Positions 11,301 through 31,035 of a stretch of 50,118 nucleotides of DNA are shown here, piece by piece. Made by a program: the position numbers and the translations under genes. Source of the DNA: an uncultured Pelagibacteraceae bacterium (lineage in GTDB: Bacteria; Pseudomonadota; Alphaproteobacteria; Pelagibacterales; Pelagibacteraceae). Position 1 is the first letter of the stretch. Each line of letters begins with the position of its first letter. The stretch covers positions 1 to 50,118 of the forward strand of contig CABYFX010000003.1 in the NCBI GenBank assembly GCA_902518395.1, given 5' to 3'. Under the pieces are notes generated by a model. It did not search any database, had not been told where the DNA came from, and saw only the letters and a program-made list of their open reading frames with translations.

Positions 11301-12117
11301 TTCTGGAACTGTAAAATTTAAAAGACATTCTAATGACATAGTAAATTCTTTACCAGCAGATTTAAGTGTAATTACAGCTGATGGAACAGATAAAGCAAAT
11401 TATAATGGAGCATTAATTTATGCTACAGACCTGGAAGGAAAACTGACCAAAATTAATTTAACGGACAAAGGAACACTCTACGATACAACAACTTTATTCA
11501 CGGCAGAGTCGACATCTGCAAATGGAAGGTACATTTATACCAGACCAGAGGTAACGATTAACAATGACAATAACCTGTGGTTGTATTTTGGAACTGGAAA
11601 CACTCAAAAGCTTCAATCTCAATCTTCTCAAGTAAAAAATAGACTTTATGGTATAAAAGACAAAAATTTCCCTAATTTTGTTAAAGTTAACCCTGCTGGA
11701 GACATTTCTAAGTGTAAAACGGCTCCAACTTGCCCAAAGGATACAGATCTAGGATGGTATGTGGATCTTAAAAAGTCGCAAAAATTGACTGCAGAACCTA
11801 CAGTAGATAAGGACAGAGTTTATTACCCAATTTATGAACCAACTGCTGCGAATAATAAGTGTGGTACAGGAGTAGCAATTTTAATGGCATATGATACAAA
11901 ATGTGGAAATTCCTTGTTAAATGTAACCTTAGGGAAAGGTGTTCTATCAAAAGTTGTAAAACAAGGTGATAATCTTTATATCGGTATTGCTGGAGAGGTT
12001 GATAAAAACATTGGAAATTCTGGATTTACATCAAAAGATAACCTAATTACTGGAAAATCAAAGGCAAAAGATAGTGGAAATGAAGTTCAAATAGAAAAAT
12101 GGATTCAAAATTACTAA
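8329..12117 (+). CDS. pilY1: PilY1-like pilus tip adhesin with vWA, NHL-repeat and PilY1 C-terminal propeller regions
   Basis: MLDNSGSMS MIDAS motif; NHL-type repeats at aa ~59-335; GVDVYDQDSDNNKTES..LADIYHSELIVVGKP and LLGSLGAGGKGLYALDVTNP typical of the PilY1 C-terminal domain. Confidence 0.88.
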   Translation: MARFTKIISIFLLLITTFQAQAKNPPPGTGTSDIPANILIMLDNSGSMSARLYNSVQVYYPLDVATDSAGNVYVLEYHNSRIKVFDSSGNYKRSFGSNGYGCNQWRYARQFDIYNDEIYIADTYNHHIIRLSLTGKCISKERTGSNYPHAIAADSAYVYVGFTSWSGQGRYIEAHYRTRLNYYRNIDTGNAGLRYSWGMSLNSGGNRLIVADYVRNQLYEFAVSNYQSTSSNVSLSLRQRSNSSYSSSNGYFRRPTDAAYDSSGNIYALDLYGHRLQKFNSSLVYQAKVGSYSTSSGFRYPYGMHVDGNNNIYVTDYYNYAVRKYDTSLTETATYGGGGGTRLDAAKKVIKKIVSNTDLTSGANFGLMEWGSGYSGRTRIRVKISDTGAKSIYSNVDGVYASGGTDLRYAMNTARNYFTSGQVANWNLTCSMNFLIVISDGYWSGHNQVISIANQIRNSYNIKTFAVGFALGGANSNYSSLATAGGTVKPLYASNETELLAKLTDAIKQAISGRLTFTTPAVMSDVTKGNFVYQSTFEYAKNMQWKGSLKKYKLNSNGTFGAVQWDAGDKLNSKNASSRNIWTPEIDTSLNNFTTSNRDALKSRLFPSQSPTDTEVENLINFIRGVDVYDQDSDNNKTESIHKLADIYHSELIVVGKPDAPALDDGSINSKEKDSYYRSQNNYNNFKNGSSCGGPCANRKEIVYAGANNGILHAFDASSGEELWGYIPPNVLGNLEKIPSSKANSTNAIYGIDGSPVVKDIFFDDTPNDNINNPRWRTILLGSLGAGGKGLYALDVTNPNSPTHLFAINNNESDKFIQHWGVDRMKNEFGYAGGSSIDAKYDYRKLGETWSTPRIIRIKVSGKDKWVAVFGGGYNGAVNPNVGSAVFVMDLEDEGRLLKVIDIEDKSKQTYTWSGTFGSRVGGILTTNNTIFEVAKWSPGISYDSSKGESIIAEFSPPVGHTITFSNSGSVSTVTKVTFDSAWPCETSQNCSGTVKFKRHSNDIVNSLPADLSVITADGTDKANYNGALIYATDLEGKLTKINLTDKGTLYDTTTLFTAESTSANGRYIYTRPEVTINNDNNLWLYFGTGNTQKLQSQSSQVKNRLYGIKDKNFPNFVKVNPAGDISKCKTAPTCPKDTDLGWYVDLKKSQKLTAEPTVDKDRVYYPIYEPTAANNKCGTGVAILMAYDTKCGNSLLNVTLGKGVLSKVVKQGDNLYIGIAGEVDKNIGNSGFTSKDNLITGKSKAKDSGNEVQIEKWIQNY

Positions 12118-12130
12118 CTTAATTCCACTC

Positions 12131-12215
12131 TAACACAATAAAATATAATTCTAACACAAATAAAAAATTATTATATTTATTAAAATTGTGTTATAAATTT
12201 ATACTTATTGTGTTA
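12131..12215. promoter_or_regulatory. Four 9-bp boxes (TAACACAAT, TAACACAAA, ATTGTGTTA, ATTGTGTTA), putative operator array of the pilMN operon
   Basis: Boxes at 12131-12139, 12152-12160, 12185-12193, 12207-12215; in-pair spacing 21 and 22 bp; candidate -10 TATACT at 12200-12205. Confidence 0.6.
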
Positions 12216-14422: not shown

Positions 14423-15072
14423 TGGATTTATCGAATTTAAAAAATATGAATGTGAGTGACCTTGTATCTAGTATAAAAGGGTCGGAGCTTTTGAGAGATA
14501 AAAAATTTCTCATAAAATTTGGTATCGCTTCTGTAGCAATATTAATCTTCTTAATTGGTTATTATTTTTTCGTCAGCCCAATTATTAAAGATCAGAAACA
14601 AAAAATTTTACTTATGAATGATAATAAAATTAAAATTGAGGAATTTAAAAGCAATATTGTTACAGTTTCAAAATCAATTAAAAAACTGGAACCAGAATTT
14701 AAAAAAAATAGCAGGTTATTTCATTCAAAAAAAGAGGTTGAAGATTTGTATCAAAATATAAGCAATTTTGCTTTAAGTAATGGATTGAATATAATAAATT
14801 TAAAAGTAGTAGATCCAGTTGGAGTTAGTGCAAACCAAAACCAAGATCAAAACAACACAGAAAATCCTCAATTTCTTTATTATAAAATACCTGTAGATTT
14901 TGAAATTAAGGGTAATTATTTAGGTTATCTTAAGTTTAGAAGGGCTTTAGCATCATCGACTAAAGTGATTAACTTTGATAAAGAAGAGATAGATGTAATT
15001 AAAGATGCACAAGGACAAGTTATAGCAAAAGGTACAATTTCAATTGTAGGATTACCAGATGAATACAAATAA
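14422..15072 (+). CDS. pilO: Type IV pilus inner membrane protein PilO
   Basis: Single TM, coiled coil, ferredoxin-like C-terminus, position after PilN. Confidence 0.78.
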   Translation: MDLSNLKNMNVSDLVSSIKGSELLRDKKFLIKFGIASVAILIFLIGYYFFVSPIIKDQKQKILLMNDNKIKIEEFKSNIVTVSKSIKKLEPEFKKNSRLFHSKKEVEDLYQNISNFALSNGLNIINLKVVDPVGVSANQNQDQNNTENPQFLYYKIPVDFEIKGNYLGYLKFRRALASSTKVINFDKEEIDVIKDAQGQVIAKGTISIVGLPDEYK

Positions 15073-15505
15073 AAATCTCATATATCTCTTGCTAATAATA
15101 TTTACTTTTAATATAAACTTTATGAATTTAAATGCTGAGGAAAAAGTTAATCTTGAAGAAGAAGAATTGCCAGCAATAGACCCTTTTCTGGGCACATCTG
15201 CATCAATGAATACTGGTCAAAACCAACCAACAAATTCAACTGAAATTATAGAAACTAAGTCATTTATTAATGATTTAAGATTAATAGGTACAATTTTTGG
15301 AAAAAAAAAGAAATTTGCAGTTTTAAGTTCGCCAGACGGATCTTTATTTCAATTTAAAGAGGATGAACAAATAACAGAAAATGAAAGATTAGTTTTTATA
15401 TCAGAGGATTATATTTTAGTTACAGTATTTGATGATGAGGAAAAATTATATGAAGTTTATATGAATTATGTAGTTAAAGAAAGTAAAGAAACGAAAAAAA
15501 ATTAG
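15059..15505 (+). CDS. pilP: PilP-like periplasmic protein
   Basis: Signal peptide, IDPFLG, LRLIGTIFGKKKKFAVLSSPDGSLFQFKEDEQI; position between PilO and secretin. Confidence 0.7.
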   Translation: MNTNKNLIYLLLIIFTFNINFMNLNAEEKVNLEEEELPAIDPFLGTSASMNTGQNQPTNSTEIIETKSFINDLRLIGTIFGKKKKFAVLSSPDGSLFQFKEDEQITENERLVFISEDYILVTVFDDEEKLYEVYMNYVVKESKETKKN

Positions 15506-17056
15506 ATGAAAAAATTACTTAAACTATTTCCAATTTTCTTTTTAATTTTTTTGTATTCTTGTCAAAATGCAAACAAAATAACAACACTTCCTAAAAGAGA
15601 TAAGCCACTGATAGATACAAAAGCAGTGATTAAAGAAGGCCTAAAAGATATGAATAAAAAAATAGAAGATGGGCCTAAACCAAAAAAAATTGAAATTACT
15701 AAGGAAAAAAGAAAAACAATAACTACTCAAAAATATAAAAACTATGTCACTTTTCCAGCAGGATACAGAAATCTTAAACAAAAAATTAGTATTAATTTTC
15801 AAAACCTAGATTTCAAATATGCAATGGGATTAATGGCTGAGATGGGAAATATAAATATTTTGGTTGGAGATGAAGTAAGCGGAACAATAAATGCAAAAAT
15901 TAAAAATGTAGCTTGGGATGTTACATTTCAAACTTTACTTAATATGAAAAATTTAGGGTCTGATATAGATGTTGAAAATGGTATTATTAGAGTTCACAGC
16001 CCAGAAAATATAACAAGTCAAGAATCATTTAATTCATCTCGAGCAGAAGCATTAAAGAAAAAAGTTGAACTTGAAGAAACGTTTAAACCTATGTTGGCTG
16101 AAATATTTAATCTTTATTACATTAGTCCTGTACAAGCGAAAACTACCCTTGAAGATTTATTTGCATCTCAAGGAACCGAAGGTCAAAATGTCATGACGAA
16201 TCTAAAGATTACAGTAGAAGATACTACTCGATCAATAATTGTAAGAGGATATAGAGAAGATTTAGATGTTATTGACAAAGTTATCAAAGAAATCGACGTA
16301 AAAACTAAACAAGTTTTAATCGAGGCATTTGTAGTAGATGTCACATCGACCTTTGCAGCAGCTTTAGGTTCTAGAATTGGTGCTATGACTAAGCAAGGAA
16401 CTGGAGATACTTCAAATACAACAGTATCAGGAACTATTGGAGGTGCAGCAACAACCTCTACAGGAGTTGCTTTAAGTGCTGCAGCTGGAACAGTTAGTAA
16501 CAACACAATTGTTGGAGCAACAAGTGGTATTGGAATAATAAAAACTATGGGTGCATCAGTTCTCAAAGTTGAATTAGAAGCTCTACAATCGATGGGACTG
16601 AATGAAATTCTCTCATCTCCAAGTGTATTCACTTTAAATAACCAAGAAGCAACAATTACTCAAGGAACTCAGGTTCCATATCAGACAACATCTGATGGAA
16701 CAACAACTACAGCATTTAAAGAAGCTGCTCTTTCTTTAACTGTTACTCCTAGTATTATCGGTGACGGTAATGTTTTAATGGATATCAAGGTAAATGATGA
16801 CTCACCAGACACATCTTTTGGAACAGACGAGCCTGCAATTAAAACAAATGAAATTAAAACAAAGTTATTGGTTAGCGATGGAGACATAGTTGTAATCGGA
16901 GGTATTAAAAAGAACACAAAAAGTGACACTAAAACTAAAACACCAGGTTTAGCAGACCAGAAAAATAAAGCACTAGGAAATTTATTTAAGAGCCGAAATA
17001 ATACAGATACCTTAACAGAATTATTAATTTTTATAGCTCCCAAAGTAATAGAGTAG
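15506..17056 (+). CDS. pilQ: Type IV pilus secretin (PilQ/MshL-like), predicted lipoprotein
   Basis: FLYSCQN lipobox; STN/N-domain; LSSPSVFTLNNQEATITQGTQVPYQT and LLVSDGDIVVIGGIKK secretin motifs. Confidence 0.9.
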   Translation: MKKLLKLFPIFFLIFLYSCQNANKITTLPKRDKPLIDTKAVIKEGLKDMNKKIEDGPKPKKIEITKEKRKTITTQKYKNYVTFPAGYRNLKQKISINFQNLDFKYAMGLMAEMGNINILVGDEVSGTINAKIKNVAWDVTFQTLLNMKNLGSDIDVENGIIRVHSPENITSQESFNSSRAEALKKKVELEETFKPMLAEIFNLYYISPVQAKTTLEDLFASQGTEGQNVMTNLKITVEDTTRSIIVRGYREDLDVIDKVIKEIDVKTKQVLIEAFVVDVTSTFAAALGSRIGAMTKQGTGDTSNTTVSGTIGGAATTSTGVALSAAAGTVSNNTIVGATSGIGIIKTMGASVLKVELEALQSMGLNEILSSPSVFTLNNQEATITQGTQVPYQTTSDGTTTTAFKEAALSLTVTPSIIGDGNVLMDIKVNDDSPDTSFGTDEPAIKTNEIKTKLLVSDGDIVVIGGIKKNTKSDTKTKTPGLADQKNKALGNLFKSRNNTDTLTELLIFIAPKVIE

Positions 17057-17062
17057 CATGAT

Positions 17063-18767
17063 ATGAGTAAGATTAAACTGGACATTACAAGTGAACAAAA
17101 CATTTTAAATATGTTACTGGATCACTCGGTAATCAATGATAACCAACTATCAAAAATAAATTCAACTAGCAATGAAGTGGGAAAAACTAAGCTTGAAACT
17201 GCTATGGAATTAAATCTTACAAATGAAGAAAAGATTGTAAATGTTTTAGCAGCTTCGTATTCTTTAGAAATTGTTAATTTAAAAGAAAAAAAAATTGACC
17301 AAAAAATAAAACAAGTATTAGATTTAAGATTTATTGAAGAAAATTTTATTGTTCCTTTTGAAATTTCAGGTCAAACAATAAAAATTGCCATACCAGATGC
17401 CTCTAAGTTAAGTTTAATGAAGAACCTTAAAACAATGACGCAAATGGAACCTGAACTTTATGCTGCATCTATTTCTAACATAAAAGATTTTGTTGGCAGG
17501 TTAAAAGATTTAGAATCAAAAAAAATAAATCCATCAGATGTAAAAATAGAGAAAATAAAACCAAAAGATGAGGATGAAATTGTAGAAGTAGGATCTGAGG
17601 TAATTGTTTTTGGAAATAAAATTATTACTGAAGCAATAAATCTTGGAGCAAGTGATATTCATATTGAATGTTTCAGAAATAGTGCACAAGCGAGATTTAG
17701 GGTGGATGGAATTTTAAGAGTAATGTCAAATTATTCTAAGTTCTTGTTTGACAACTACAATGCTGTTGTAACCAGAATAAAAATTATAAGCAAACTTGAT
17801 ATTGCTGAGAGAAGAATTCCTCAAGATGGTGCAAGTACTTTTAGTACAGGAAGTAAAGAAGTAGATTTAAGGGTTTCTATTTTACCCACCAAAAACAATG
17901 AAAGAATTGTAATGAGGATCTTAAATAAAGAAGCTGGAGAAAAAAAACTAAACGAATTAGGTTTCGATCCTAAAGACTTAGAAAAATTAACAAAGGCAAT
18001 TAGCTCTCCCCAAGGTATGGTGCTAGTAACTGGACCGACAGGAAGTGGAAAAACTACTACTTTATATAGTGTATTAAAACATATTAACAAACCTGGTATG
18101 AATATTTTGACTGCAGAGGATCCCGTAGAGTATGAACTTGAAGGAGTTGGTCAGGTACAAATTAAAGAAGCTATAGATTTTACTTTTGAGATGGCATTAA
18201 GATCTTTTCTAAGGCAGGACCCGGAGGTAATTTTAGTTGGAGAGATAAGAGATAAAGCTACAGTGGATATAGCTTTAAAAGCATCATTGACTGGACACTT
18301 AGTCTTTAGCACTTTGCACACCAATGATGCACCAAGCTCAATTACAAGATTACAAAATATGGGTACGCCAAATTATTTAATTTCTGCTGCACTATCTTTA
18401 ATTATGGCACAAAGATTAGCTAGACGAAACTGTCCAGAATGTTCAATTATTGACGAGAACGTTACCCCTAAATTATTAAATTCTATAGGTTTTCTTCCAG
18501 AACAATCAGCAAGAGCAAAGATTTACAAAGGCAAAGGATGTGATCATTGTGGCAATTCTGGATTTAAAGGGAGAATGGGTATTTACGAAATTTTGGAAAT
18601 TGATAAAGAATTAAAGCAAGGAATTTTATCTGATTTAGGTCAAAACGAACTCAATGCAATTGCAAAAAAAAAATGGTTTTAGAACCATGCAAAATATGGG
18701 GCATGATTTGCTTTTAAGTGGAGATCTGTGTTTTTCTGAATTCGAAAGAGTCTTGCAATCTGACTAA
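17063..18767 (+). CDS. pilB: Type IV pilus assembly ATPase PilB; 0-frame ORF ends at 18682, C-terminal ~31 aa displaced into +1 frame at an A10 run
   Basis: Walker A GPTGSGKTT, tetracysteine CPEC..CDHC, GRMGIYEIL; after A10 the +1 frame reads NGFRTMQNMGHDLLLSGDLCFSEFERVLQSD*, ending in TAATG overlapping pilC. Confidence 0.9.
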
Positions 18768-19999
18768 TGCTTAATTTCGAATATAAGGGAATATCCCATG
18801 GAAAATATGTAGAAGGTCAAATAGAGGCTTTAAATAATTCAGAAGCCGCTCATAAACTAAAAGAAAAAAAAGTAATAATAACAAAATTAACCCAAGCAAA
18901 AAAACAAAAACCTGTTGTTAAAAAAGAAAAAACGTCATTAACATTTGGAACTGGTGTTAAAGCGAAAGATATTCTGGTATTTTGTAAACAATTTTCTACT
19001 ATGCTTAGAGCTGGGTTACCCGTTTTAAATACTTTAGAGATGTTAGAAAATCAGACCACAGCAAAAGGTATGAAAAAAATAATTGGGACTATAAAAAAAG
19101 ATCTTGAATCAGGAAATGCATTATCAAAATGTTTCGAAAAACATTCCAAAGTTTTTGATACGGTTGTAGTGAATTTAATTAAGGCTGGTGAAGCGAGTGG
19201 TAAATTAGATATTTTTTTAAATAGGATAGTTACCAATTTGGAAAAAAAAGAGAAAATTAAATCTCAAATAAAAAGTGCTTTTTTTTATCCTGGGGTTCTC
19301 TTAACAGTAGCTGTTGGTGTTACAGTATTTATGCTTATGAATGTTGTTCCAACATTTGTAGAAATGTATGAAGGTATGGGAATGGGAGATGATCTTCCAA
19401 CTCCCACGGCAGTAATTATGGCCATGAGTGAATTTTTAAGATCAAGTGGTGGTTTAATTTTATTTATATCAATAATAGCTTCCATTATTATTTTTAAAAT
19501 TTTAGTTTCAAAAAGTTATGGTATTAGAAAAGCCTGGCATGCAACAATTCTTAAACTCCCAATCTTTGGAAATTTAATGCAAAAATCAATATTAGCAAAG
19601 GTATCAATCGTATTAGGAAATTTAAATCAAGCAGGAGTAGATTTGATTGAAAGCATAGATATTGCAAAATCTACAACTACTAATACCATTGTAGTTGAGG
19701 CTTTAGAAAATATTAAAAAGGGAGTTTTTTCAGGAGAAACTCTCACTGATTTATTTACCAAGGAAAAAGTTTTTCCTTCTACATTTAGTCAATTAATCTC
19801 AGTAGGAGAACAGACTGGAAGTTTAGATGACATGTTTGGATCTGTTGCAACATACTACGAAGAGGAATTTGATGTAGCTGTTGCAAATTTATCTAGTTTA
19901 ATCGAGCCAATAATGATTGTGTTTATGGGAATTACTATCGGTGGTCTAATGTTAGCTATGTATGCGCCTATATTTAACGTCGGAGCCGTTATAAATTAA
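18767..19999 (+). CDS. pilC: Type IV pilus inner membrane platform protein PilC
   Basis: GspF/PilC family: VFCKQFSTMLRAGLPVL, three TM segments, FPSTFSQLISVGEQTGSLDDM. Confidence 0.92.
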   Translation: MLNFEYKGISHGKYVEGQIEALNNSEAAHKLKEKKVIITKLTQAKKQKPVVKKEKTSLTFGTGVKAKDILVFCKQFSTMLRAGLPVLNTLEMLENQTTAKGMKKIIGTIKKDLESGNALSKCFEKHSKVFDTVVVNLIKAGEASGKLDIFLNRIVTNLEKKEKIKSQIKSAFFYPGVLLTVAVGVTVFMLMNVVPTFVEMYEGMGMGDDLPTPTAVIMAMSEFLRSSGGLILFISIIASIIIFKILVSKSYGIRKAWHATILKLPIFGNLMQKSILAKVSIVLGNLNQAGVDLIESIDIAKSTTTNTIVVEALENIKKGVFSGETLTDLFTKEKVFPSTFSQLISVGEQTGSLDDMFGSVATYYEEEFDVAVANLSSLIEPIMIVFMGITIGGLMLAMYAPIFNVGAVIN

Positions 20000-20088: not shown

Positions 20089-20529
20089 ATGAACAATAAA
20101 AATAAAGGATTTACGCTAATTGAATTGTTAGTAGTTGTAGCCATCATTGGTATATTAGCTGCAGTCGGAGTTGTAGCATACAATGGTTATACATCTTCTG
20201 CAAAAACTAATGCAACAAAGACAATGCATTCTCAAGCAGTTAAATATATATCAGCTGAAATACAGAAATGTTCTTTAGGCGAAAGTAAATTTATGGGAAC
20301 CAATCAGGATTGTCCTGCAACAGCAGCAAAAGCTGTAACAGGAGCAGTTAATACTATGACTGATAAAAATCCATTTTCGACAGCGAATAATGCTGTTGTT
20401 TCGAGTGGTTCTTTTGTAGCTGGACAGGTAAGTGTAAGTTCTAGTGGTACTACAATAACAGTTAAAACATGTACAAAATCTGGATGTGGAAGTTCAGATC
20501 AGTTAACTGCAACTATTGCAGTAGATTAA
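20089..20529 (+). CDS. pilA: Type IV pilin 1 (probable major pilin)
   Basis: KGFTLIELLVVVAIIGILAAVGVVAYNGYTSSAK; first gene behind the predicted promoter; TCTKSGC near C-terminus. Confidence 0.88.
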   Translation: MNNKNKGFTLIELLVVVAIIGILAAVGVVAYNGYTSSAKTNATKTMHSQAVKYISAEIQKCSLGESKFMGTNQDCPATAAKAVTGAVNTMTDKNPFSTANNAVVSSGSFVAGQVSVSSSGTTITVKTCTKSGCGSSDQLTATIAVD

Positions 20530-20535
20530 ATTTTC

Positions 20536-20922
20536 ATGAGGCACTACAGCCGAGGGTTCACTCTAATTGAACTTTTGGTTGTAGTTGCCCTTATTGGAAT
20601 ACTTTCAGCAATTGGAATAGTTTCTTATACTAAATACAAAACTTCAGCAGAAAGAAAGCAAGCTGAAATAAGTTTAAACTCAATTTATCTCGCTCAACAA
20701 GAATATAGATCTAATAATTCAGAATATTGCACTACAAATTGTAGTTCGCAAAGCAAAATTATAACTGAATTATTTGATGGAGTAGATGATCTATCTGATC
20801 AGAATTTTACATTTAAAATTAATAATAGGACAGACGGATTTGAAGGCGAAGCAAAGCACAAAACATCCAACTGCACTTTAAAACTAAGTGAAAAAAACCA
20901 ACTAACCAGTAGTAACTGCTAG
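20536..20922 (+). CDS. Type IV pilin 2, divergent (PilE-like)
   Basis: RGFTLIELLVVVALIGILSAIGIVSYTKYKTSAERKQAEISLNSIYLAQQEYRSNN; lacks the VVAYNGYT motif of the others. Confidence 0.85.
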   Translation: MRHYSRGFTLIELLVVVALIGILSAIGIVSYTKYKTSAERKQAEISLNSIYLAQQEYRSNNSEYCTTNCSSQSKIITELFDGVDDLSDQNFTFKINNRTDGFEGEAKHKTSNCTLKLSEKNQLTSSNC

Positions 20923-20925
20923 TTA

Positions 20926-21129
20926 ATGAAAGAGTTCTTATTTTTTAATATTATAATTTCATTTTTAAATATTTTCTTAATTATTTACGCTTACTCATTA
21001 AATTTCTTTCCCAAAAATTGGAGAAGAAAAGTTAATCAAGATACCCTAGTTGGATTAGTATTAATTTTTTCAACAATGTTTACTGGATTAATTTGGGTAA
21101 TTTATTTTTATTATAAAATATTTTTTTAA
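20926..21129 (+). CDS. Small two-TM membrane protein embedded in pilin array
   Basis: 67 aa, two hydrophobic segments; tightly packed between pilin genes. Confidence 0.6.
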   Translation: MKEFLFFNIIISFLNIFLIIYAYSLNFFPKNWRRKVNQDTLVGLVLIFSTMFTGLIWVIYFYYKIFF

Positions 21130-21131
21130 AA

Positions 21132-21695
21132 ATGTATCAAAAAGGATTTACTCTCATAGAACTTTTAGTAGTAGTAGCCATCATTGGTATTCTCTCTGCA
21201 GTTGGAGTAGTTGCTTATGGAAAATACACTGATAGTGCTAAAAATACAATTATTAAGTCTAACCATCATAAAATTAAAGAATTGATAAAAGCAGAAATTG
21301 CAGATTGTCATTTATCAGGCGGAAGAGATTATAAAGTTATAAGATATGAGAGATCTGGAGGAAAAACTTTTAGGGAAAGAGAATATAGATGTCGTTCAGC
21401 TTTTAGTAATCAACTACAGGTGCATTTTTTGGCTTTGGGTTTAAGAGATCCTATAATTCAAGAGTTTAGTTTTTATAAGACTTGGACATATAACGGCACA
21501 GTTTTACCCAATGATGCAGGGGCTGCTTGGTGGGGAACTCCTAGAAAAGAGGCTAAATATCATCCTGCTTATTGGGTTGGAAAAACCTGGATTGAGGAAA
21601 AATGGATAGATGGATCAAGAAATTTAAAGCTAACAAGTTATTTAATGGATGAAACAACCAATATTACCGATACAATTCAGATTCCATTTAAATGA
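21132..21695 (+). CDS. Type IV pilin 3
   Basis: MYQKGFTLIELLVVVAIIGILSAVGVVAYGKYTDSAK. Confidence 0.85.
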   Translation: MYQKGFTLIELLVVVAIIGILSAVGVVAYGKYTDSAKNTIIKSNHHKIKELIKAEIADCHLSGGRDYKVIRYERSGGKTFREREYRCRSAFSNQLQVHFLALGLRDPIIQEFSFYKTWTYNGTVLPNDAGAAWWGTPRKEAKYHPAYWVGKTWIEEKWIDGSRNLKLTSYLMDETTNITDTIQIPFK

Positions 21696-22171
21696 TTAAA
21701 ATTAAAGCATTCACCCTAATAGAACTCCTAGTCGTAGTAGCAATCATCGGTATTCTTGCTGCAGTAGATGTTGTTGCTTATAATGGTCATACAGCTAGTG
21801 CAAAAGAAAAAGATTGTTTAAATCATTATGCAACTTTAAAAAGACTAATTAATCAGCATTGGACTTTGTGAGATATAGATGGAAAAGTGTCTTTGAAAGG
21901 TCAATATACAAATAATAAAGAAGGTACTGCAAGAGATGTATCTTGTTCAAATTTTGGAACCATAGCTGGAGAAACTGTCAAACATTTTACCAACTATGCG
22001 AAGAGTCCATATGAGGACTTAGATTATAATTTAGGAATATTAGGTTATATTGGTGATCCACCTAAAGATGGGCAATTTGCCTATTATCCAGAGTCTGCAG
22101 GATTTAAATTAAGAGTAAGATGTAGAGGAAAAGTTACCTCTCATCAGTGGCCAAAATCTCAGTATCCATAA
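21692..22171 (+). pseudogene. Type IV pilin 4, interrupted by in-frame TGA
   Basis: MIKIKAFTLIELLVVVAIIGILAAVDVVAYNGHTASAK..HWTL*DIDGKVSLKGQYTNN; TGA at 21869-21871 is in frame with 21692 and with the downstream ORF 21887-22171. Confidence 0.8.
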
Positions 22172-22175
22172 TATT

Positions 22176-22730
22176 ATGGAACAAAAAGGTTTTACATTAA
22201 TAGAACTCTTAGTCGTTGTAGCAATCATTGGAATTTTATCTGCAGTTGGTGTAGTTGCCTATAATGGTTACACAAATTCTGCTAAAGAAAAAACAACAGA
22301 ATTAAACTATAAAAATATAAACAAATCATTAATGTTTGAATTTATGAAGTGTGAAATAGATAGTACAAACATAGTTTTTAATAATTATAGTTGTGGAAAT
22401 TCTAATCCACCCCCAACGTCAATGATAAGTACTTATATTAATAAAAGTATGAATATAAAAAACCCCTACTCATCAAACACATCAGGAATAAGCTCAAATC
22501 CTTGCACATTAGGTACAGTATCAATTACAATGCCATCTAAGGGTAATTATTCTGTTAATGTTTATTCTCCTAAAACTCAAAAAATTTCTTCAGCAAATTT
22601 TGGAACTATTTGGACACCAGTAAAAACAAATGCTAAAAATACATGGTCTCAAGTAAATACTGGATGCAAAAACACATGGACACAAATAAAAACTAATGCA
22701 AAAAATACATGGAAAAAAGCTGGACCATAA
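22176..22730 (+). CDS. Type IV pilin 5 with C-terminal 11-aa tandem repeat
   Basis: MEQKGFTLIELLVVVAIIGILSAVGVVAYNGYTNSAK; C-terminus PVKTNAKNTWS/QVNTGCKNTWT/QIKTNAKNTWK. Confidence 0.83.
   Translation: MEQKGFTLIELLVVVAIIGILSAVGVVAYNGYTNSAKEKTTELNYKNINKSLMFEFMKCEIDSTNIVFNNYSCGNSNPPPTSMISTYINKSMNIKNPYSSNTSGISSNPCTLGTVSITMPSKGNYSVNVYSPKTQKISSANFGTIWTPVKTNAKNTWSQVNTGCKNTWTQIKTNAKNTWKKAGP
22617..22715 (+). repeat. 3 x 33-bp imperfect tandem repeat in pilin 5
   Basis: Encodes (P/Q)(V/I)(K/N)T(N/G)(A/C)KNTW(S/T/K) three times. Confidence 0.75.
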
Positions 22731-23190
22731 AGCCTTCACTTTAATAGAACTCTTAGTCGTTGTCGCCATCATCGGTATTCTTGCTGCCGTAGGAGTAGTT
22801 GCTTATAATGGGTATACAAGTAGTGCTAAAAAAAAAGTAGTCTTAACGCAATATGATCAAACAATAAAATATGTAAAAGCTGAAGTAATAAAATGTGACA
22901 TTGGATCAGACACAGTAATGGATGGTCACTTAAAGTGTTCAGAAAAACTAGATAATGATAAGATAGCAAATGGTGTACGTAATGCTTTTGACCAAAAATT
23001 TAATAACCCATATAAATCATGGAGAGAAAATGCTGTAGCAGTAGCATCCCCACCAGTCAATTTAAAATGTGGAGAAAACCATGGAAAAATTGACATCAGC
23101 AATAGAAAATCAGGTTCGAAAACTTTAGTTCGTATTGCCGCTTGTACAGGAGATCCGACTGCACTCTTAACAGAGTTTTTAATTGAATAA
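22696..23190 (+). CDS. Type IV pilin 6
   Basis: MQKIHGKKLDHKAFTLIELLVVVAIIGILAAVGVVAYNGYTSSAK; overlaps end of pilin 5. Confidence 0.8.
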   Translation: MQKIHGKKLDHKAFTLIELLVVVAIIGILAAVGVVAYNGYTSSAKKKVVLTQYDQTIKYVKAEVIKCDIGSDTVMDGHLKCSEKLDNDKIANGVRNAFDQKFNNPYKSWRENAVAVASPPVNLKCGENHGKIDISNRKSGSKTLVRIAACTGDPTALLTEFLIE

Positions 23191-23250
23191 AAAAGCATTC
23201 TCACTAATTACTGCAAGTGATAAAGTAATAATATAAATTTAAGTTGATTA

Positions 23251-23772
23251 ATGAATAAAGCCTTCACCCTAATAGAACTCCTAGTCGTTGTCGCCATCAT
23301 CGGTATTTTAGCTGCAGTAGGAGTAGTTGCTTATAATGGGTATACAAAAAGCGCAAAAGTTAATGCCTCAAAAACTAATCATAGTAATGTTGTAAAATTT
23401 ATTATGACTGAAGTAAAAAAGTGTGACCTGGGACAAGAATTAATTTTAAAATATAGTTTTAGCAAAGCTACCGGAAAGCTTAAATATTCAAATGATGTAT
23501 GTCCTGATATTGTTGCAAACAAAGTATCTAATGTTGCTAGTGCCTTTCATAACCACTTTAATGCACCACACACATGTAACCCTCATGGTCTACTAGATGG
23601 AAGTGGAAACTGTAAACAAGCAGTCGCTGCTGGAGGTAATATTCAAAATGGATCTTTAGGAGAAACTCAAATACATACTTCAGGAAGCAATATTGTAATT
23701 GTCACAAAGGTTTCTGGTACATATAATGTAAATGATGGTGAGGTACTAAAAAATACTATTCAAATTCAATGA
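23251..23772 (+). CDS. Type IV pilin 7
   Basis: MNKAFTLIELLVVVAIIGILAAVGVVAYNGYTKSAK. Confidence 0.87.
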   Translation: MNKAFTLIELLVVVAIIGILAAVGVVAYNGYTKSAKVNASKTNHSNVVKFIMTEVKKCDLGQELILKYSFSKATGKLKYSNDVCPDIVANKVSNVASAFHNHFNAPHTCNPHGLLDGSGNCKQAVAAGGNIQNGSLGETQIHTSGSNIVIVTKVSGTYNVNDGEVLKNTIQIQ

Positions 23773-24299
23773 AGCAAAAAGCCTTCACCCTAATAGAACT
23801 CCTAGTCGTAGTAGCCATCATTGGAATTCTTGCTGCAGTCGGCATGGTTGCTTATAATGGGTATACAGCAAGTGCAAAAAAAAATGCAATTAAACATAAC
23901 TTTAATGAAATTGTTAACTTCATAAGTTTAAATTATACAAAATGTGATTTAGGTGAACCTATAAAGATGAATGATCAATCAGGAAATTCAAAAGATGTAA
24001 CTAGTGGATATTGTAATAATAGCCCTTTGGGTGCTTGTCACATTTTAACAGCTCATTTTAAATCTTTGAAATGGAAAAATCCTTACACAGATCATTATAT
24101 AAAAAACAACGTAGATAGTGAATATGTTCTTCACTGTTCAAATTCTGGGTATCCTTCTTCAAAACTTATGAACAGTCAAGCTGCAGGCTATGTCTTTATA
24201 ACTAATGTATCAGGCTCACCAAAAATTATGAGACTGGAAATGAGATGGGATAATAATTTTAGTGGTGATATGTCGAAGAAAGATATTACAGTACCATAA
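23769..24299 (+). CDS. Type IV pilin 8
   Basis: MKQKAFTLIELLVVVAIIGILAAVGMVAYNGYTASAK. Confidence 0.87.
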   Translation: MKQKAFTLIELLVVVAIIGILAAVGMVAYNGYTASAKKNAIKHNFNEIVNFISLNYTKCDLGEPIKMNDQSGNSKDVTSGYCNNSPLGACHILTAHFKSLKWKNPYTDHYIKNNVDSEYVLHCSNSGYPSSKLMNSQAAGYVFITNVSGSPKIMRLEMRWDNNFSGDMSKKDITVP

Positions 24300-24772
24300 T
24301 GAAGCAAAAAGGATTTACACTTATAGAACTCTTAGTTGTAGTAGCTATCATCGGTATCCTCGCTGCAGTAGGAGTGGTTGCTTATAGTGGTTATACTAAG
24401 AGTGCTAAAGAATCTGCTGTCAAAACACAACATAGTCAAGTTGTTAAATATGTTGCTGCAGAACTTGCTAAATGTAATATTGAGTCGACAGTAATGGAGG
24501 GCAATTTATCCTGTTCAGGCAAAACTTATCAAAATGTTGTTGATGCAATTGTAAAAACTTTTTCAAATTTAGATCACATATATGAACCTGGTAAAACTGT
24601 TGTAACAGATGGTGGAAGCTATAGTAACAATAGTGGATCCACTGGTTTTATTCGATTGCAAAGTCCATACAATCCTAAAACTCATATATTAATTGGAACA
24701 TGTTATGGTGATCCTTGTTTGCTTAACAGAGTTGAGAAATATATCGAAACCATCATACCAATTGACTATTAG
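24299..24772 (+). CDS. Type IV pilin 9
   Basis: MKQKGFTLIELLVVVAIIGILAAVGVVAYSGYTKSAK. Confidence 0.87.
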   Translation: MKQKGFTLIELLVVVAIIGILAAVGVVAYSGYTKSAKESAVKTQHSQVVKYVAAELAKCNIESTVMEGNLSCSGKTYQNVVDAIVKTFSNLDHIYEPGKTVVTDGGSYSNNSGSTGFIRLQSPYNPKTHILIGTCYGDPCLLNRVEKYIETIIPIDY

Positions 24773-24779
24773 ACTATTT

Positions 24780-25304
24780 ATGAAACAAAAAGCGTTCACA
24801 CTGATAGAACTCTTAGTCGTTGTAGCCATCATCGGTATTCTAGCTGCAGTCGGTGTCGTTGCTTATAATGGATATACTAATAGCGCTAATGTCTCAGTAT
24901 CTAAATCTAATCACAATACAGCAGTCAAAAAACTGAATTTATTAATTCAAAAATGCAACATTAGTTCTAATGGCAAAGTAAAACTGATGATGAAAGCTAA
25001 CGATAAGACAGAATATGAAAAAGGTTGTTGGTATGATGTAAACACATATTTGTTATTTAGACAGTATTTTACAAATGATTTAAATAATTCAATTGAATGG
25101 AAAAATAATCATACAAAAGAACCTTGGGGTAGAAATTACGTTGCAATGGAAGGAAATAGTTGGGCATGTACTCAGGAAAAATATATTGGATATGTAAATA
25201 TGGATTATAAAACATCATCAAAGACTATTGAAATTTGTACTTGTATTGATAGCCCGTGCAGTGATAATTCAAACATTAAGAAATATGAAACACAGTGGAA
25301 ATAA
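24780..25304 (+). CDS. Type IV pilin 10 (start corrected from 24693)
   Basis: ATG at 24780 gives MKQKAFTLIELLVVVAIIGILAAVGVVAYNGYTNSAN. Confidence 0.85.
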   Translation: MKQKAFTLIELLVVVAIIGILAAVGVVAYNGYTNSANVSVSKSNHNTAVKKLNLLIQKCNISSNGKVKLMMKANDKTEYEKGCWYDVNTYLLFRQYFTNDLNNSIEWKNNHTKEPWGRNYVAMEGNSWACTQEKYIGYVNMDYKTSSKTIEICTCIDSPCSDNSNIKKYETQWK

Positions 25305-25824
25305 AAATTTTAGAGCCTTTACTCTAATAGAACTATTAGTCGTTGTAGCCATTATAGGTATTTTATCTGCTGTAGGAGTGGTGGCTTATAATGGTTACAC
25401 CTCAAGCGCCAATGCTTCAGTAACAAAGTCAAATCATAAAATAGTCGTTAAAGAAGTAAAATTGGTAATTACGAATTGTGAAATTGGTGGCACTGTTCAA
25501 TTAATGAGTACGTTAAATAGTAAAAATTATAGCTCGCATACTTGCTATGGAAATGTCCAAGCTTTTTTTCCAGAATATTTTAAAAATCATATAAATAACA
25601 TGATGGATTGGAGTAATTCGTCTAGTATAAGCAACTGGAATGGAAAAAACATGTACGTTTTACAAGAAGGGAATATGTCAAACACACATGCAGGTTTTGT
25701 CTTTTTACAAGTACCGTCAAACTCAAATAGAGAAGTATGGGTAAATATGTTTACATGTTTTAAATCACCATGCAACAAAGCTGAAAACAGAATCGAAGAT
25801 CAAGTATCTTTTTATCAATGGTAA
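25285..25824 (+). CDS. Type IV pilin 11 (start corrected from 25228)
   Basis: ATG at 25285 gives MKHSGNKNFRAFTLIELLVVVAIIGILSAVGVVAYNGYTSSAN. Confidence 0.82.
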   Translation: MKHSGNKNFRAFTLIELLVVVAIIGILSAVGVVAYNGYTSSANASVTKSNHKIVVKEVKLVITNCEIGGTVQLMSTLNSKNYSSHTCYGNVQAFFPEYFKNHINNMMDWSNSSSISNWNGKNMYVLQEGNMSNTHAGFVFLQVPSNSNREVWVNMFTCFKSPCNKAENRIEDQVSFYQW

Positions 25825-26336
25825 AGGACGCCATAAACAGAGATGGTTTCACATTAATTGAGCTTTTAGTCGTCGTAGCCATCATCGGTATTCTAGCTGC
25901 TGTAGGTGTTGTAGCTTATAATGGTTATACACAAAGTGCAAAAAGAAATGCCACTCTTCAACAACATGCTCAAGCGGTAAAATTTATAAATAACACACTA
26001 AAATTATGTGATGTTCAAGGTGGTGGGATGTTAACGCTAAGTGATACGAGATCAATAAATTGCGATGTTAACAATAACCCTGGTGGTATTAATGGCTTGA
26101 ATAATATTTTTATTAATTATTTCTTAGACCAAGGGTATACAAATCCCTATGATAATTCAGTAATTGTTGTTTATACTGGCAGAAATAGTTCAAATGACAC
26201 AAATGGGAGAATGAGGTTTGATGAAACAGATTGCCCAAATAATTCTTCAAAAAAAAGAATTGCATTATGGGTAAAAACACATGTTGCAAGTGATTATCAA
26301 CCTGCGTTAATTCAAAAAGACGGATGGTGTAATTAG
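25818..26336 (+). CDS. Type IV pilin 12
   Basis: MVKDAINRDGFTLIELLVVVAIIGILAAVGVVAYNGYTQSAK. Confidence 0.85.
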   Translation: MVKDAINRDGFTLIELLVVVAIIGILAAVGVVAYNGYTQSAKRNATLQQHAQAVKFINNTLKLCDVQGGGMLTLSDTRSINCDVNNNPGGINGLNNIFINYFLDQGYTNPYDNSVIVVYTGRNSSNDTNGRMRFDETDCPNNSSKKRIALWVKTHVASDYQPALIQKDGWCN

Positions 26337-26668
26337 TTAAGATGATTTAAATTTATCATTAAAGAATTTAAATCATATGAATTCTTTAAAATAAGACCAT
26401 TTGTATCAGTAATCAAATATTTAAGATTTTTATTCTTTGGTTTAAAGTTTTTGCAAATCTTAAAACATGCATTCTCAGATGCATTTCTAAAAACATTAAA
26501 AGTGACTTGTTGATTTGAATTACTTAAACCATAATCTTTCCACGAACCCTTAGAGACCATTTTAGCATATAAATTTAAAATTATTTTTAATTCTTTTTTT
26601 TCGAAAAAATATTTTTGTTTTTCCTCTTTTTTATTATTATCAATTACTAATCTTAGGTTTCTATTCAT
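26333..26668 (-). CDS. DUF2794-like protein
   Basis: FEKKELKIILNLYAKMVSKGSWKDYGLSNSNQQVTFNVFRNASENACFKICK resembles alphaproteobacterial DUF2794. Confidence 0.65.
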   Translation of the reverse strand: MNRNLRLVIDNNKKEEKQKYFFEKKELKIILNLYAKMVSKGSWKDYGLSNSNQQVTFNVFRNASENACFKICKNFKPKNKNLKYLITDTNGLILKNSYDLNSLMINLNHLN

Positions 26669-27317
26669 TAATTTTATACTTATTTATCAATCCTATTTGA
26701 AAAGCGGTAAAAATAAAGGTTATTGGCAACATTCCCCAAACTTTAAAGTTTACCCAAAATTCTTCCGTTTGAGTTCTCCAGATTATTTCATTTAAAATTG
26801 CTAGAGCAAAAAAGAAATACATCCATCTCTTATTTAAAATTTCCCAACCCTCGTCATTTAAGGGCATAGATTTGCCAAGTAATTTCTTTAAAATTGGCTC
26901 TTTTGTAAAGTATTTGCCAAACATTAATGCAAGACCAAATAAAATATTTATAATTGTGGGCTTCATGTAAATAAATATAGGATCATCAAAATAAATTGTT
27001 AGACCACCAAATAGCGTTATCAATACTCCACTAATTAATGGAACTTTTGGAATTTTTTTCTCGCTAACCCAAACAACTAATACAGCAATAATTGTTGCAA
27101 CTATAAGTGGAGGAATTGCAATAATTAAGTTTTTATCATTGTTATAATAAAAATAAAAAAATATTACTAAAGGCCCTAAATCAGTTACAAATTTTAAAAA
27201 AGATTTATTCACTGCTACATAATAGCAGAATAATAAAACATTCACATTTTTTTTATTGATTTTTAATCTTAAATATCCATATTTAATGTGTGAGCATTCA
27301 AAAAGGTAAATTTTCAA
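26661..27317 (-). CDS. Inner membrane septation protein A family (YciB/IspZ)
   Basis: LGPLVIFFYFYY..., NEIIWRTQTEEFWVNFKVWGMLPITFIFTAFQIGLI. Confidence 0.85.
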   Translation of the reverse strand: MKIYLFECSHIKYGYLRLKINKKNVNVLLFCYYVAVNKSFLKFVTDLGPLVIFFYFYYNNDKNLIIAIPPLIVATIIAVLVVWVSEKKIPKVPLISGVLITLFGGLTIYFDDPIFIYMKPTIINILFGLALMFGKYFTKEPILKKLLGKSMPLNDEGWEILNKRWMYFFFALAILNEIIWRTQTEEFWVNFKVWGMLPITFIFTAFQIGLINKYKINE

Positions 27318-27610
27318 TTGGTGATGTAGTAAAACATAAGCACTTTGATTTTAGAGGTGTAATATATGACGTTGATTTTGAATTTAATAATTCAGAGGAG
27401 TGGTATCAATCAATTCCAAAAAATGTAAGACCAAGAAAAGATCAACCATTTTATCATTTGTTAGCTGAAAATGACGAAATCACGTATGAAGCATATGTTT
27501 CTGAACAAAATTTATTGGTGGATGACTCAGATGAACCGATTAAGCACCCTCTAATTAACGAAATATTTTCAGGCAAAAAGGGTTCAGGCTATTTTAAACC
27601 TTCTAACTAG
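27290..27610 (+). CDS. hspQ: Heat shock protein HspQ / hemimethylated-DNA-binding family
   Basis: FSIGDVVKHKHFDFRGVIYDVDFEF..IPKNVRPRKDQPFYHLLAEND..YEAYVSEQNL. Confidence 0.88.
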   Translation: MSIQKGKFSIGDVVKHKHFDFRGVIYDVDFEFNNSEEWYQSIPKNVRPRKDQPFYHLLAENDEITYEAYVSEQNLLVDDSDEPIKHPLINEIFSGKKGSGYFKPSN

Positions 27611-27682
27611 ATATATTTACATTTTTTAAACACATTTCGTGCAAATCTTCGTCACAGATTATGACTAAAATAAATAATATTT

Positions 27683-27736
27683 TGACCAAGGATGCTTTAA
27701 TCCCATTTATTTTATCTCCCTCAGTGTTCTTGGTCA
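27683..27736. repeat. Inverted repeat upstream of ccmC
   Basis: TGACCAAG (27683-27690) and CTTGGTCA (27729-27736), 38-nt loop. Confidence 0.5.
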
Positions 27737-27792
27737 GAATAACCCACCAGAAAAATTTTCATAATTTAAATTTGTGTTATAGATAACAGAGA

Positions 27793-28500
27793 ATGTTTAA
27801 GTATTTAAAACCGAACAATTTATTAAAAATAATAAATAAAACACAAAAGTTTGTATTTATTGTTTTTTTAGTAATTATAAGCATTGGTCTTGTTGAGGCA
27901 TTAATACTTTCTCCTGAAGACTATAAACAAAGCGACTCAGTGAGAATTATGTATGTCCATGTTCCGGCAGCTTGGATTTCTCTTGGAATTTTTTCTTTAA
28001 TTGCTGTTTTGTCATTTGGTATTTTAGTTTTTAAAAATAAGAATCTTTCTTTAATAACAAAAAGCTTAGCACCATCTGGTTTTGTCTTTAATCTAATTGC
28101 TTTAGTTACAGGATCCATCTGGGGTAAACCTACTTGGGGAACCTGGTGGGCATGGGATGCAAGAATAACATCAATGTTATTACTTGCTTTTTTTTATTTG
28201 ATGTTTCTTCTAAGTTGGAGGGTAACAGATAATGAGGAAAAAGCTGTAAAGATTAGTTCGTACATAGCAATAATAGGTTTAATAAATGTCCCAATAATCA
28301 AATTTTCTGTTGAATGGTGGTCAACATTGCACCAACCTTCTTCAGTAAATATTTTTACAGAAACTTCTATTCATGTTTCTATGTTGTTACCTTTAGGTAT
28401 AATGACTGCGGCATTTGCACTTTTTTCGCTTTTGATATTTTTGATGAAATATAATACAGAACTGATAAAAATAAAAAACAAAGGATTAGATAGATTATGA
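27793..28500 (+). CDS. ccmC: Heme exporter protein CcmC
   Basis: MYVHVPAAWIS, GKPTWGTWWAWDARITSMLLL, WWSTLHQP tryptophan-rich motif. Confidence 0.93.
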   Translation: MFKYLKPNNLLKIINKTQKFVFIVFLVIISIGLVEALILSPEDYKQSDSVRIMYVHVPAAWISLGIFSLIAVLSFGILVFKNKNLSLITKSLAPSGFVFNLIALVTGSIWGKPTWGTWWAWDARITSMLLLAFFYLMFLLSWRVTDNEEKAVKISSYIAIIGLINVPIIKFSVEWWSTLHQPSSVNIFTETSIHVSMLLPLGIMTAAFALFSLLIFLMKYNTELIKIKNKGLDRL

Positions 28501-28730
28501 TTAACGAAGTTTTATACATGAACGGATATGGTCTCTATGTATGGTCTTCTTTTGCATTTACTCTTTCTTGTTTTTGTATTTTATATTCAGTAATCAAACT
28601 TCAATTAGTTAAGGAGCAAAAGAAATTTAGGGCTCGTTTTGAAAGTTTAGAGACTAATAAAATTGAAATAGCAAAAAAACAAGAAACATACAAAGAAATA
28701 CTAGCTACTTCATCTACATCTAAAATTTAA
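28497..28730 (+). CDS. ccmD: CcmD-like heme exporter subunit
   Basis: Small single-TM protein [14 protein letters not shown] between ccmC and ccmE. Confidence 0.75.
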
Positions 28731-28741
28731 TTTTTATATTC

Positions 28742-29164
28742 ATGTATGGTAAAAAAGTTAAATTAAGAGCCATCTTTATATTATCTATATTCTTTTCATC
28801 AGTCTTAATTGTTTTTTTAGTTTTTAAATCCCTTGAGGAAAACGTTGTTTATTTTAAATCACCTACAGAAATAAAAAATTTAACAGAGTTGACACCAAAA
28901 AAAATAAGGGTTGGTGGTATGGTTAAAGAAAAATCAATTAATGTTAATCAGTCAGAAGTTAACTTTGTAATCACTGACTTTAAAAATGAATTAATCGTTA
29001 ATTATAGTGGCTCTGTTCCAAATTTATTTGAGGAGGGAAAAGGAGTTGTGGCTGAAGGTTTTTTAAAAGATCGTAATTTTTTAACTGCTGTTAAAATTTT
29101 AGCAAAACACGACGAAAATTATATGCCACCTGAAGTGAAAGAGTCAATTAAAGAGGATAATTAA
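28742..29164 (+). CDS. ccmE: Cytochrome c maturation heme chaperone CcmE
   Basis: [34 protein letters not shown] with heme-binding His. Confidence 0.93.
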
Positions 29165-31035
29165 TGCTAAACCAAATTGGAAATTATTCACTTTATATTG
29201 CTTTACTATCGTCTATTTTAATAATCATTCAATCTCCAATATTATTAAATAGGAATAATATAAATGTTAGTGGAAAAATTTTTTCACTAATTTCTATTCA
29301 ATCATTAATGATTATAATAAGTTTCATTGCTCTTATAATAGCTTTTATAATCTCAGATTTTAGTAATGAGACAGTCTATAATAATTCTCATACCTCTAAA
29401 CCTTTGTTCTATAAAATTTCAGGAACATGGGGAAACCATGAGGGAAGTTTACTTCTTTGGTTACTCGTATTATCAATTTTCTTATTAATTTTTACAATTA
29501 CTTCAAAAAATATTTCAAATAAATATAGGATTTTAACTTTATTTTTTCAGGAAATAATAATTTTGGGATTTTTGTTGTTTATTCTTTTTACCTCAAATCC
29601 TTTTATGAGTTTATTTCCAATTCCTAACGAGGGAACTGGTTTAAATCCAATACTTCAAGACCCTGCATTAGCAATTCATCCACCAATATTATATTTAGGA
29701 TATGTTGGAACATCTATTATTTTTTCTTCTTCACTCGCAGCCTTAATTTCAGGTTCTGTAAATAAAACTTGGGCTAAGCATATAAAGAATTGGGTACTAG
29801 TTTCATGGATTTTTTTATCAATTGGAATTTTATTAGGATCTATATGGGCTTATTATGAACTAGGATGGGGAGGATTTTGGTTTTGGGATCCAGTTGAAAA
29901 TGTATCCCTTATGCCATGGTTTTGTTTAACAGCTTTATTTCACACTATTTTAATTTTAGAAAAAAGAGAAATGTTTCATTCCTGGGCAGTAATTTTATCA
30001 ATTACAACTTTCTCATTAAGTATGAGTGGAACATTTCTCGTTAGATCTGGTATTTTAAATTCAATCCATACTTTTGCAAATGATCCTTCAAGGGGTGTCT
30101 TTATTCTTAGTTTTTTATTTATATTAATTACGCTGTCTATTTTTATTTATTTTTTTTATCAAAACAAAATCAATAACAATTTCACAAAAACTTATATTAT
30201 TAGTAAAGAAACAGCTATTCTAGTTAATAACTTGTTCATGATGTTTTTTTTATCAGTTGTCTTAATTGGTACAGTTTATCCAATATTTCTAGAAGTAGTA
30301 AATAATGATAAAATTTCAGTTGGCCCCACCTTTTATCATAAATTAATTGTGCCTTTTTTGATTCCTTTTTTAATTTTTATGGCAATTGGATCAAATCTTA
30401 ATTGGATAAAAGATAAAATAAATAAAATTAATCTACAGCAACTTTTATTTTTCATTTTATCAATAATTGTCTCGTTTATTTTTTTAAAAAGAGTTGGAAT
30501 TTCCTATTTATTTTCACTTCCACTTTTTATAGCAAGCTTTTTTCTTTTTTTTATTACTATTAAAGACTTTTCTGTTAAAAAAACAAATTTATCTCAAAAA
30601 ATATCTCATTTTGGTTTTAGTTTGTTTATTTTAAGTGTTTTAGTAAATGGTGTTCTTGCTAAAGAATATTCATCTAATATGAAAGTTGGTGATGAGAGAA
30701 AATTTTTAAATAAAACAATCAAATTTGAAAGTCTTAAAATTAATGAAAATAAAAATTATCAATCTTTAGAAGCAAACTTTAATATTACAGATAAAAATAA
30801 TTCGATTAATTTAAAACCAGAAGTTAGAGTTTATGATCAGCCACAGACTATTACTAGTGAGGCTGATATTGAAACAACAATATATTCAGATAATTTTTTA
30901 GTATTTAATATATTGAAAAATGATGGATTTTATAATGTAAGATATCAAATAAAACCGTTTATGATATGGATTTGGATATCAATAATATTAATCACCTTTG
31001 GAGGGATATTAAGCATTGTAAAAAAAAATGGTTAA
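29164..31035 (+). CDS. ccmF: Cytochrome c-type biogenesis protein CcmF
   Basis: WGNHEGSLLLW, WGGFWFWDPVENVSLMPWF, HSWAV. Confidence 0.94.
   Translation: MLNQIGNYSLYIALLSSILIIIQSPILLNRNNINVSGKIFSLISIQSLMIIISFIALIIAFIISDFSNETVYNNSHTSKPLFYKISGTWGNHEGSLLLWLLVLSIFLLIFTITSKNISNKYRILTLFFQEIIILGFLLFILFTSNPFMSLFPIPNEGTGLNPILQDPALAIHPPILYLGYVGTSIIFSSSLAALISGSVNKTWAKHIKNWVLVSWIFLSIGILLGSIWAYYELGWGGFWFWDPVENVSLMPWFCLTALFHTILILEKREMFHSWAVILSITTFSLSMSGTFLVRSGILNSIHTFANDPSRGVFILSFLFILITLSIFIYFFYQNKINNNFTKTYIISKETAILVNNLFMMFFLSVVLIGTVYPIFLEVVNNDKISVGPTFYHKLIVPFLIPFLIFMAIGSNLNWIKDKINKINLQQLLFFILSIIVSFIFLKRVGISYLFSLPLFIASFFLFFITIKDFSVKKTNLSQKISHFGFSLFILSVLVNGVLAKEYSSNMKVGDERKFLNKTIKFESLKINENKNYQSLEANFNITDKNNSINLKPEVRVYDQPQTITSEADIETTIYSDNFLVFNILKNDGFYNVRYQIKPFMIWIWISIILITFGGILSIVKKNG

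Follow-up and report, generated by a model that had tools for sequence, protein, structure and literature searches.

The window, a stretch of 50,118 nucleotides, is contig C3 in a 1.0-Mb, 74% complete genome whose SAR11 (Pelagibacterales) identity is confirmed. It carries a type IV pilus gene set at positions 4265–19999, and an array of pilin genes follows the pilQ, pilB and pilC genes of this set. A total of 12 head-to-tail pilin reading frames were identified on the plus strand directly after pilC (20089–26336), and 11 of them are intact. This confirms the original prediction, made from the sequence of the window, of about 12 tandem pilin genes directly downstream of pilC with at least 11 intact copies and one interrupted copy. 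The genes are numbered here as copies 1 to 12, and the variable part of each pilin that follows the constant N-terminal stem is called the head.

Copies 1 and 2 form the core of the locus. Copy 1 (20089–20529), the likely major pilin, belongs to family F1. Its AlphaFold2 model is fairly confident (pLDDT 84.9), and its sequence profile matched PilA/PilE pilins in the PDB, mostly via the N-terminal helix. Copy 2 (20536–20922) belongs to family F0 and is a ComP-like minor pilin, with a ComP_DUS score of 24.9 bits, under the cut-off of 27.3. An open reading frame (ORF) for a 67-amino-acid membrane protein (20926–21129), which is also present in locus L005 (AG-910-O15), lies between the core and the accessory pilins. 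The accessory genes begin with copy 3 (21132–21695), whose head family F4 occurs in eight loci at varying positions, and end with copy 12 (25818–26336; head family F2), the last gene of the array. Copy 4 (21692–22171) is a pseudogene with an in-frame TGA at 21869–21871, and its counterpart is intact in SAG-MED17 (locus L004), the closest named relative of the window genome, whose PilC is identical. Relative to that intact copy, copy 4 carries six further substitutions, five of which change the amino acid, including G20D and Y27H at sites almost invariant elsewhere. The stop and the changes at near-invariant sites indicate that copy 4 has decayed after the split from SAG-MED17. Copy 5 (22176–22730) belongs to head family F5 and has near-repeats at the end of its head (NTWSQVNTGCKNTWTQIKTNAKNTW).

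The spacing between array genes is mostly −35 to +7 bases; the exceptions are a 209-base gap that holds the 67-amino-acid ORF, what is left of the interrupted copy 4, and a 60-base interval ahead of copy 7. Within the array, no terminator-like site was found. This tight or overlapping spacing and the lack of a terminator-like site inside the array suggest that it may be read as a single transcript. A sigma70-like promoter had been proposed ahead of copy 1, but such a box does not stand out from background, since 49 promoter-like sites occur in the region compared with 55.8 expected from shuffled sequence.

The prepilin motif N_methyl (PF07963) scored above the cut-off in every intact copy and was the only Pfam match above the cut-off in the array pilins. 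All copies have the type IVa features, namely a short leader, a Gly/Ala cleavage site, Phe+1, Glu+5 and a hydrophobic helix, and they are encoded together with PilB, PilC, PilQ and PilM/N. Glu5 is present in 89 of 89 accessory pilins. Over mature residues 1–28, the mean pairwise identity within the array is 91%, and from residue 56 onward it falls to 22.8%, compared with 20.0% for shuffled sequence. As measured by these identities, the contrast between stem and head is far beyond chance. The constant N-termini of the original prediction are thus upheld, and its description of the heads as unrelated domains is not. Residues 31–55 and Cys54 are still common to the array pilins (Cys54 in all intact copies but copy 2), the cysteine number is even in 97% of accessory pilins, an observation relevant to a possible disulfide-closed head (D-region), and 118 of 119 accessory pilins connect transitively at E<1e-3 from residue 31 on. 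Because residues 31–55 and Cys54 are shared and the heads link transitively, the accessory heads are best described as very diverged versions of one head type.

The locus was compared with relatives at 50 loci found by a PilC search. In this clade, the copy 1 (F1) and copy 2 (F0) families hold positions 1 and 2, and the head of copy 1 shares 74–100% identity with that of the window in most of the relatives that bear an array; the values are 47% for L017 and 39% for L029. Downstream of the core pilins, zero to eleven accessory pilins occur, depending on the locus, giving up to 13 copies. The number, order and identity of copies 3–12 differ even against SAG-MED17. The two strains have 13 accessory head types, of which eight are common, two occur in the window only and three in SAG-MED17 only. 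This pattern, in which content differs between close strains and the flanks are conserved, is that of a SAR11 hypervariable region. The downstream flank at 26776–29491 shows identity to SAG-MED17 going from 98–100% at the array end to 84–98% further downstream, which points to a replaced flank. SAR11 loci at a greater distance, where PilC identity is near 60%, contain two pilins only. Among a sample of 201 genus genomes, pilins of this N-terminal type were found in 91, with at least eight in 15 genomes and a maximum of 20; in the class outside the family, at most one or two matches per genome were retrieved with a query that is biased towards SAR11. Grouping at 45% identity sorts the 119 accessory pilins from second loci and array-bearing genomes into 64 head families. 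Forty of these families were seen in one host only, and the Chao2 estimate is approximately 131. A fixed copy number with strict one-to-one orthology among relatives, which had been named in advance as a result counting against a diversified multi-pilin array, was not found; the comparison gave the opposite, and that reading is strengthened by the variation of copy number, order and head types.

Comparison with SAG-MED17 locates the points at which the two arrays part. From position 15172 through copy 5, the two strains share 97.6–100% identity (500-base steps). Copy 6 (22696–23190) matches SAG-MED17 copy 6 exactly up to and including codon 8; from approximately 22760 it continues with other sequence and another head. 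The head found at position 6 in SAG-MED17 is that of window copy 9 (24299–24772; head family F18). The heads of copy 8 (23769–24299; family F6) and copy 10 (24780–25304; family F16) share 98–100% DNA identity with SAG-MED17 copies 8 and 11, respectively, with different leaders and N-terminal stretches, and the leader of copy 10 is common to SAG-MED17 copy 7, whose head differs. In copy 11 (25285–25824; family F20), 215 bases were compared with the counterpart; one base differs upstream, and the differences are otherwise confined to nucleotides 33–54 of the mature coding region, resembling a conversion tract. Breakpoints and tracts of recombination between pilin copies are thus found in the N-terminal stretch. 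Judging from copies 6, 8, 10 and 11, the moving unit is a head together with its downstream spacer and the leader of the gene that follows, and both crossovers lie in the constant stretch. The best matches to the changed tracts are mostly in other strains and not in other copies of the same incomplete genome. Because of this, and because own-genome donors were not found, exchange seems to take place mainly between cells rather than by switching inside one genome. Homogenisation inside one genome was also considered but is not supported, since silent differences in the N-terminal stretch are alike within and between arrays (0.445 vs 0.470) and donors are lacking in the own genome. Carriage by viruses gained no support either, as viral contigs yielded no hit with the F4 head family or with the N-terminal DNA pattern.

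Heads are also shared between loci and between more distant strains. Contig C11 of the same genome contains a second array of seven pilins (9491–17503), bringing the total to about 19–20 pilins in 1.0 Mb. These pilins lie at 9491–11391 and 15443–17503, on both sides of a GCV_T/sarcosine-dehydrogenase-like gene. This neighbourhood is also present in SAG-MED17 but lacks the first pilin group there, and the contig of that strain stops short of where the second group would lie. In the fourth C11 pilin, the head shares 100% DNA identity with that of SAG-MED17 array copy 10, while the leader and the N-terminus are different. SAG-MED17 copy 7 has a head with 97.5% DNA and 100% protein identity to a second-locus pilin of AG-914-B14, in which pilC identity is 79%. 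Copy 7 of the window (23251–23772; head family F29) is common to L024, with 85% DNA identity in the head and 73% in pilC. The heads are more alike than pilC, by a margin in identity above 0.05, in 48 of the 115 accessory pairs compared and in 2 of 105 copy 1 pairs. The C11 locus (L054) also contains a 223-amino-acid ORF (12045–12716) that joins a multi-pass membrane part to a copy-1-like head (56% identity) and has no prepilin motif; the junction is near mature residue 24–28, where the constant stem ends. An origin of this fusion from a 91-amino-acid membrane protein of SAG-MED17 is not supported (score 41, shuffled maximum 53).

The heads have been conserved as proteins. Over 70 pairs of accessory heads, the median dN/dS is 0.12 and the maximum 0.47, and window copy 9 differs from SAG-MED17 copy 6 by 19 silent changes and no amino acid change. 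From the low dN/dS and this excess of silent changes, the heads are best read as working proteins that purifying selection keeps as discrete types, and not as a silent store. The accessory N-termini use the genome-rare codons ATC, GTC, CTC and GGG. In 14 genomes, the G+C content at third codon positions (GC3) of accessory codons 1–14 is higher than that of copy 1 (p 0.002) and that of the heads (p 0.0001). The raised GC3 and the rare codons fit a much-recombining stretch subject to GC-biased conversion, without being proof of it.

Overall, the locus is probably a modular pilin array with a constant core and exchangeable heads. It consists of two core pilins, of which copy 1 is likely the major pilin and copy 2 a ComP-like minor pilin, followed by accessory pilins that have the helix and the signals for cleavage and assembly in common with them. 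The sequence comparisons show heads being removed, inserted or replaced in frame by recombination between the constant N-terminal coding stretches of about 90 bp, and this genetic mechanism is very likely. The movement occurs within the array, from one chromosomal array to the other, and across strains and species, and purifying selection keeps each head type. The accessory pilins would then be produced, matured and incorporated into the same filament, which would display mixed or changing heads. Filament packing relies on the shared helix, and for this reason assembly of the accessory pilins by this pilus machinery into a single mixed filament is somewhat favoured. The proposal that the N-terminal stretch, being alike at the DNA level, acts as a recombination anchor for a pool of head cassettes in SAR11 populations, shared among cells and species and with two chromosomal docking sites, is put forward tentatively; if true, such an anchor and cassette pool would allow open-ended surface change in a bacterium with otherwise few paralogs. 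Selection for rare or new heads that evade phages, or for heads that bind new surfaces, might keep the pool open, and phage or adhesion as the driver is possible, though tentative. Expression of SAR11 pilins is documented in HTCC1062, in which PilA (SAR11_0054) was detected as a protein (PMC2864753) and, when cells were starved in the dark, pili formed and pilA was up-regulated (PMC3090418). Surface proteins of a SAR11 hypervariable region, including pilins, have been suggested as a phage defence (PMC6811365).

Several points weigh against this interpretation. Co-assembly of the accessory pilins is argued from the shared helix. Foldseek retrieved no significant match with the copy 1 model, and the model of the copy 3 head is poor (pLDDT 54). 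With one of 12 copies a pseudogene, a single accessory gene is evidently dispensable. No close donor was found for the changed N-terminal tracts within the same, incomplete genomes, and the raised GC3 can have other causes. The usual channel for exchange between cells is also doubtful, as ComEC was not found in the genus genomes searched.

This last result bears directly on DNA uptake. Searches for ComEC (PF03772) gave no hit in 39 high-quality genus genomes, or 40 in one tally, and none in 12 genomes that bear an array, with 10 of 14 controls positive; it was not found in any of 51 genus genomes covered, although type IV pilus genes are common there. A canonical competence pilus is not supported on this ground. 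Because ComEC was not found, the usual DNA uptake by this pilus is doubtful, and DNA uptake as a driver, one of those named in the original prediction, is weakened. That the pilins are mainly a DNA-uptake device, with an array that diversifies DNA receptors, is very improbable, although copy 2 resembles ComP (below the cut-off) and pili have been proposed as a cause of the high recombination rates of SAR11 (PMC3090418). Phage evasion, adhesion and cell-cell contact remain as candidate drivers.

The other alternatives concern how the accessory genes are used and whether the array is real. An expression locus with a reservoir of the pilE/pilS type, in which copy 1 is expressed and copies 3–12 donate heads, would agree with a constant N-terminus carrying variable heads, with recombination tracts inside the N-terminal stretch and with many copies in a row. 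It is nevertheless very unlikely. In those relatives of the clade that bear an array, copy 1 retains a head of its own family, and no accessory head takes its place there; the accessory copies are complete, with starts, leaders and Glu5, and are under purifying selection; and the donors of changed tracts were not found in the own genome. A silent reservoir is rejected on the retained head family of copy 1 and on the completeness and selection of the accessory genes, and this half of the earlier interpretation, which as a whole is partly supported, is not sustained in its gonococcal form. A toolkit of alternative pili, in which each accessory pilin forms its own filament type under regulated switching and without co-assembly, is unlikely. 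The discrete, conserved head types are consistent with it, and a study of Haloferax volcanii describes PilA1–PilA6 as sharing one N-terminal domain and each able to form pili alone (PMC4371748); the compact layout of the array, suggestive of one transcript, argues against it. Mis-joining of contigs at the similar N-terminal repeats might be suspected, since most of the genomes are single-cell or metagenome assemblies and the window genome itself is incomplete. Such an artefact is extremely unlikely, as exact repeats in the window array reach 32 bases at most, independent projects agree on the core-plus-array order and on the heads, swaps preserve the reading frames, and common heads differ mostly by silent substitutions.

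The remaining genes of the pilus set lie upstream of the array on the plus strand. The upstream end is formed by a PilT-type ATPase of the T2SSE family (4265–5275; 168.6 bits), named PilT from its size and context. It is followed by two pseudopilins or minor pilins with the N_methyl prepilin motif (5235–5939, of non-array type, and 6385–7275), a PilY1-like protein (8329–12117; T4P_PilY1) in which both NHL repeats and a von Willebrand factor A (VWA) domain are present, and a PilM-PilN fusion of 735 amino acids (12215–14422; PilM_2 and PilN within one ORF). The PilQ secretin (15506–17056; Secretin), the PilB ATPase (17063–18682; T2SSE and MshEN) and the platform protein PilC (18767–19999; T2SSF), which was the query for relatives, complete the set. 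A convergent DUF2794 gene on the minus strand (26333–26668) forms the right border of the array. A large autotransporter-like adhesin gene (5901–7760) lies between the 67-amino-acid ORF and accessory pilin 3 in L005, and SAR11 autotransporter adhesins beside pilus genes have been reported (PMC12636525). In L021, a trypsin-like protease gene (5789–6760) separates core pilins 1 and 2, and gaps of about 1 kb occur between these two genes in L014, L015 and L048.

SAR11 cells rank among the most abundant on Earth and serve as a textbook example of genome streamlining. A set of about 20 paralogous pilin genes in approximately 1 Mb, with turnover between near-identical strains, is contrary to the streamlining picture. 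The array is a concrete, testable candidate for how SAR11 cells encounter phages, surfaces and each other, and a natural set of interchangeable heads on one stem makes the function of pilin heads directly testable.

Pilin genes have been described before in two hypervariable regions of HTCC1062, SAR11_0053/0054 in HVR1 and SAR11_1216/1219, near sarcosine dehydrogenase 1221, in HVR4; the C11 array resembles the HVR4 setting in its position beside a GCV_T/sarcosine-dehydrogenase-like gene (PMC2217521). A few pilins are named in that study, and a tandem array, head families, exchange and breakpoints are not described in the part of it available (PMC2217521). Open-access titles and abstracts on SAR11 or Pelagibacter pilins and on tandem or cassette pilins, to which the search was limited, describe no such array. 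The locus resembles Neisseria pilE/pilS in having a constant N-terminal helix, a variable head and change by homologous recombination (PMC4877100). In Neisseria, however, silent copies donate to one expressed gene (PMC4877100), whereas the window array consists of complete tandem genes; the first of these retains its head family, and exchange of heads extends across strains and loci. Silent donors without a start or N-terminus are not the rule here, as 11 of the 12 copies are complete, and copy 1 does not vary by gene conversion from donors. The locus also resembles PilA1–PilA6 of Haloferax volcanii, in which an almost fully conserved N-terminal hydrophobic domain, needed for pili, carries different heads (PMC4371748), a combination also seen here in the identities of 91% and 22.8%. 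The Haloferax system is archaeal and has six genes that are not co-regulated with the pilus-biosynthesis genes, and head exchange is not described in the part of that report available (PMC4371748); the window locus, in contrast, is bacterial, with tandem genes downstream of pilC whose heads are swapped.

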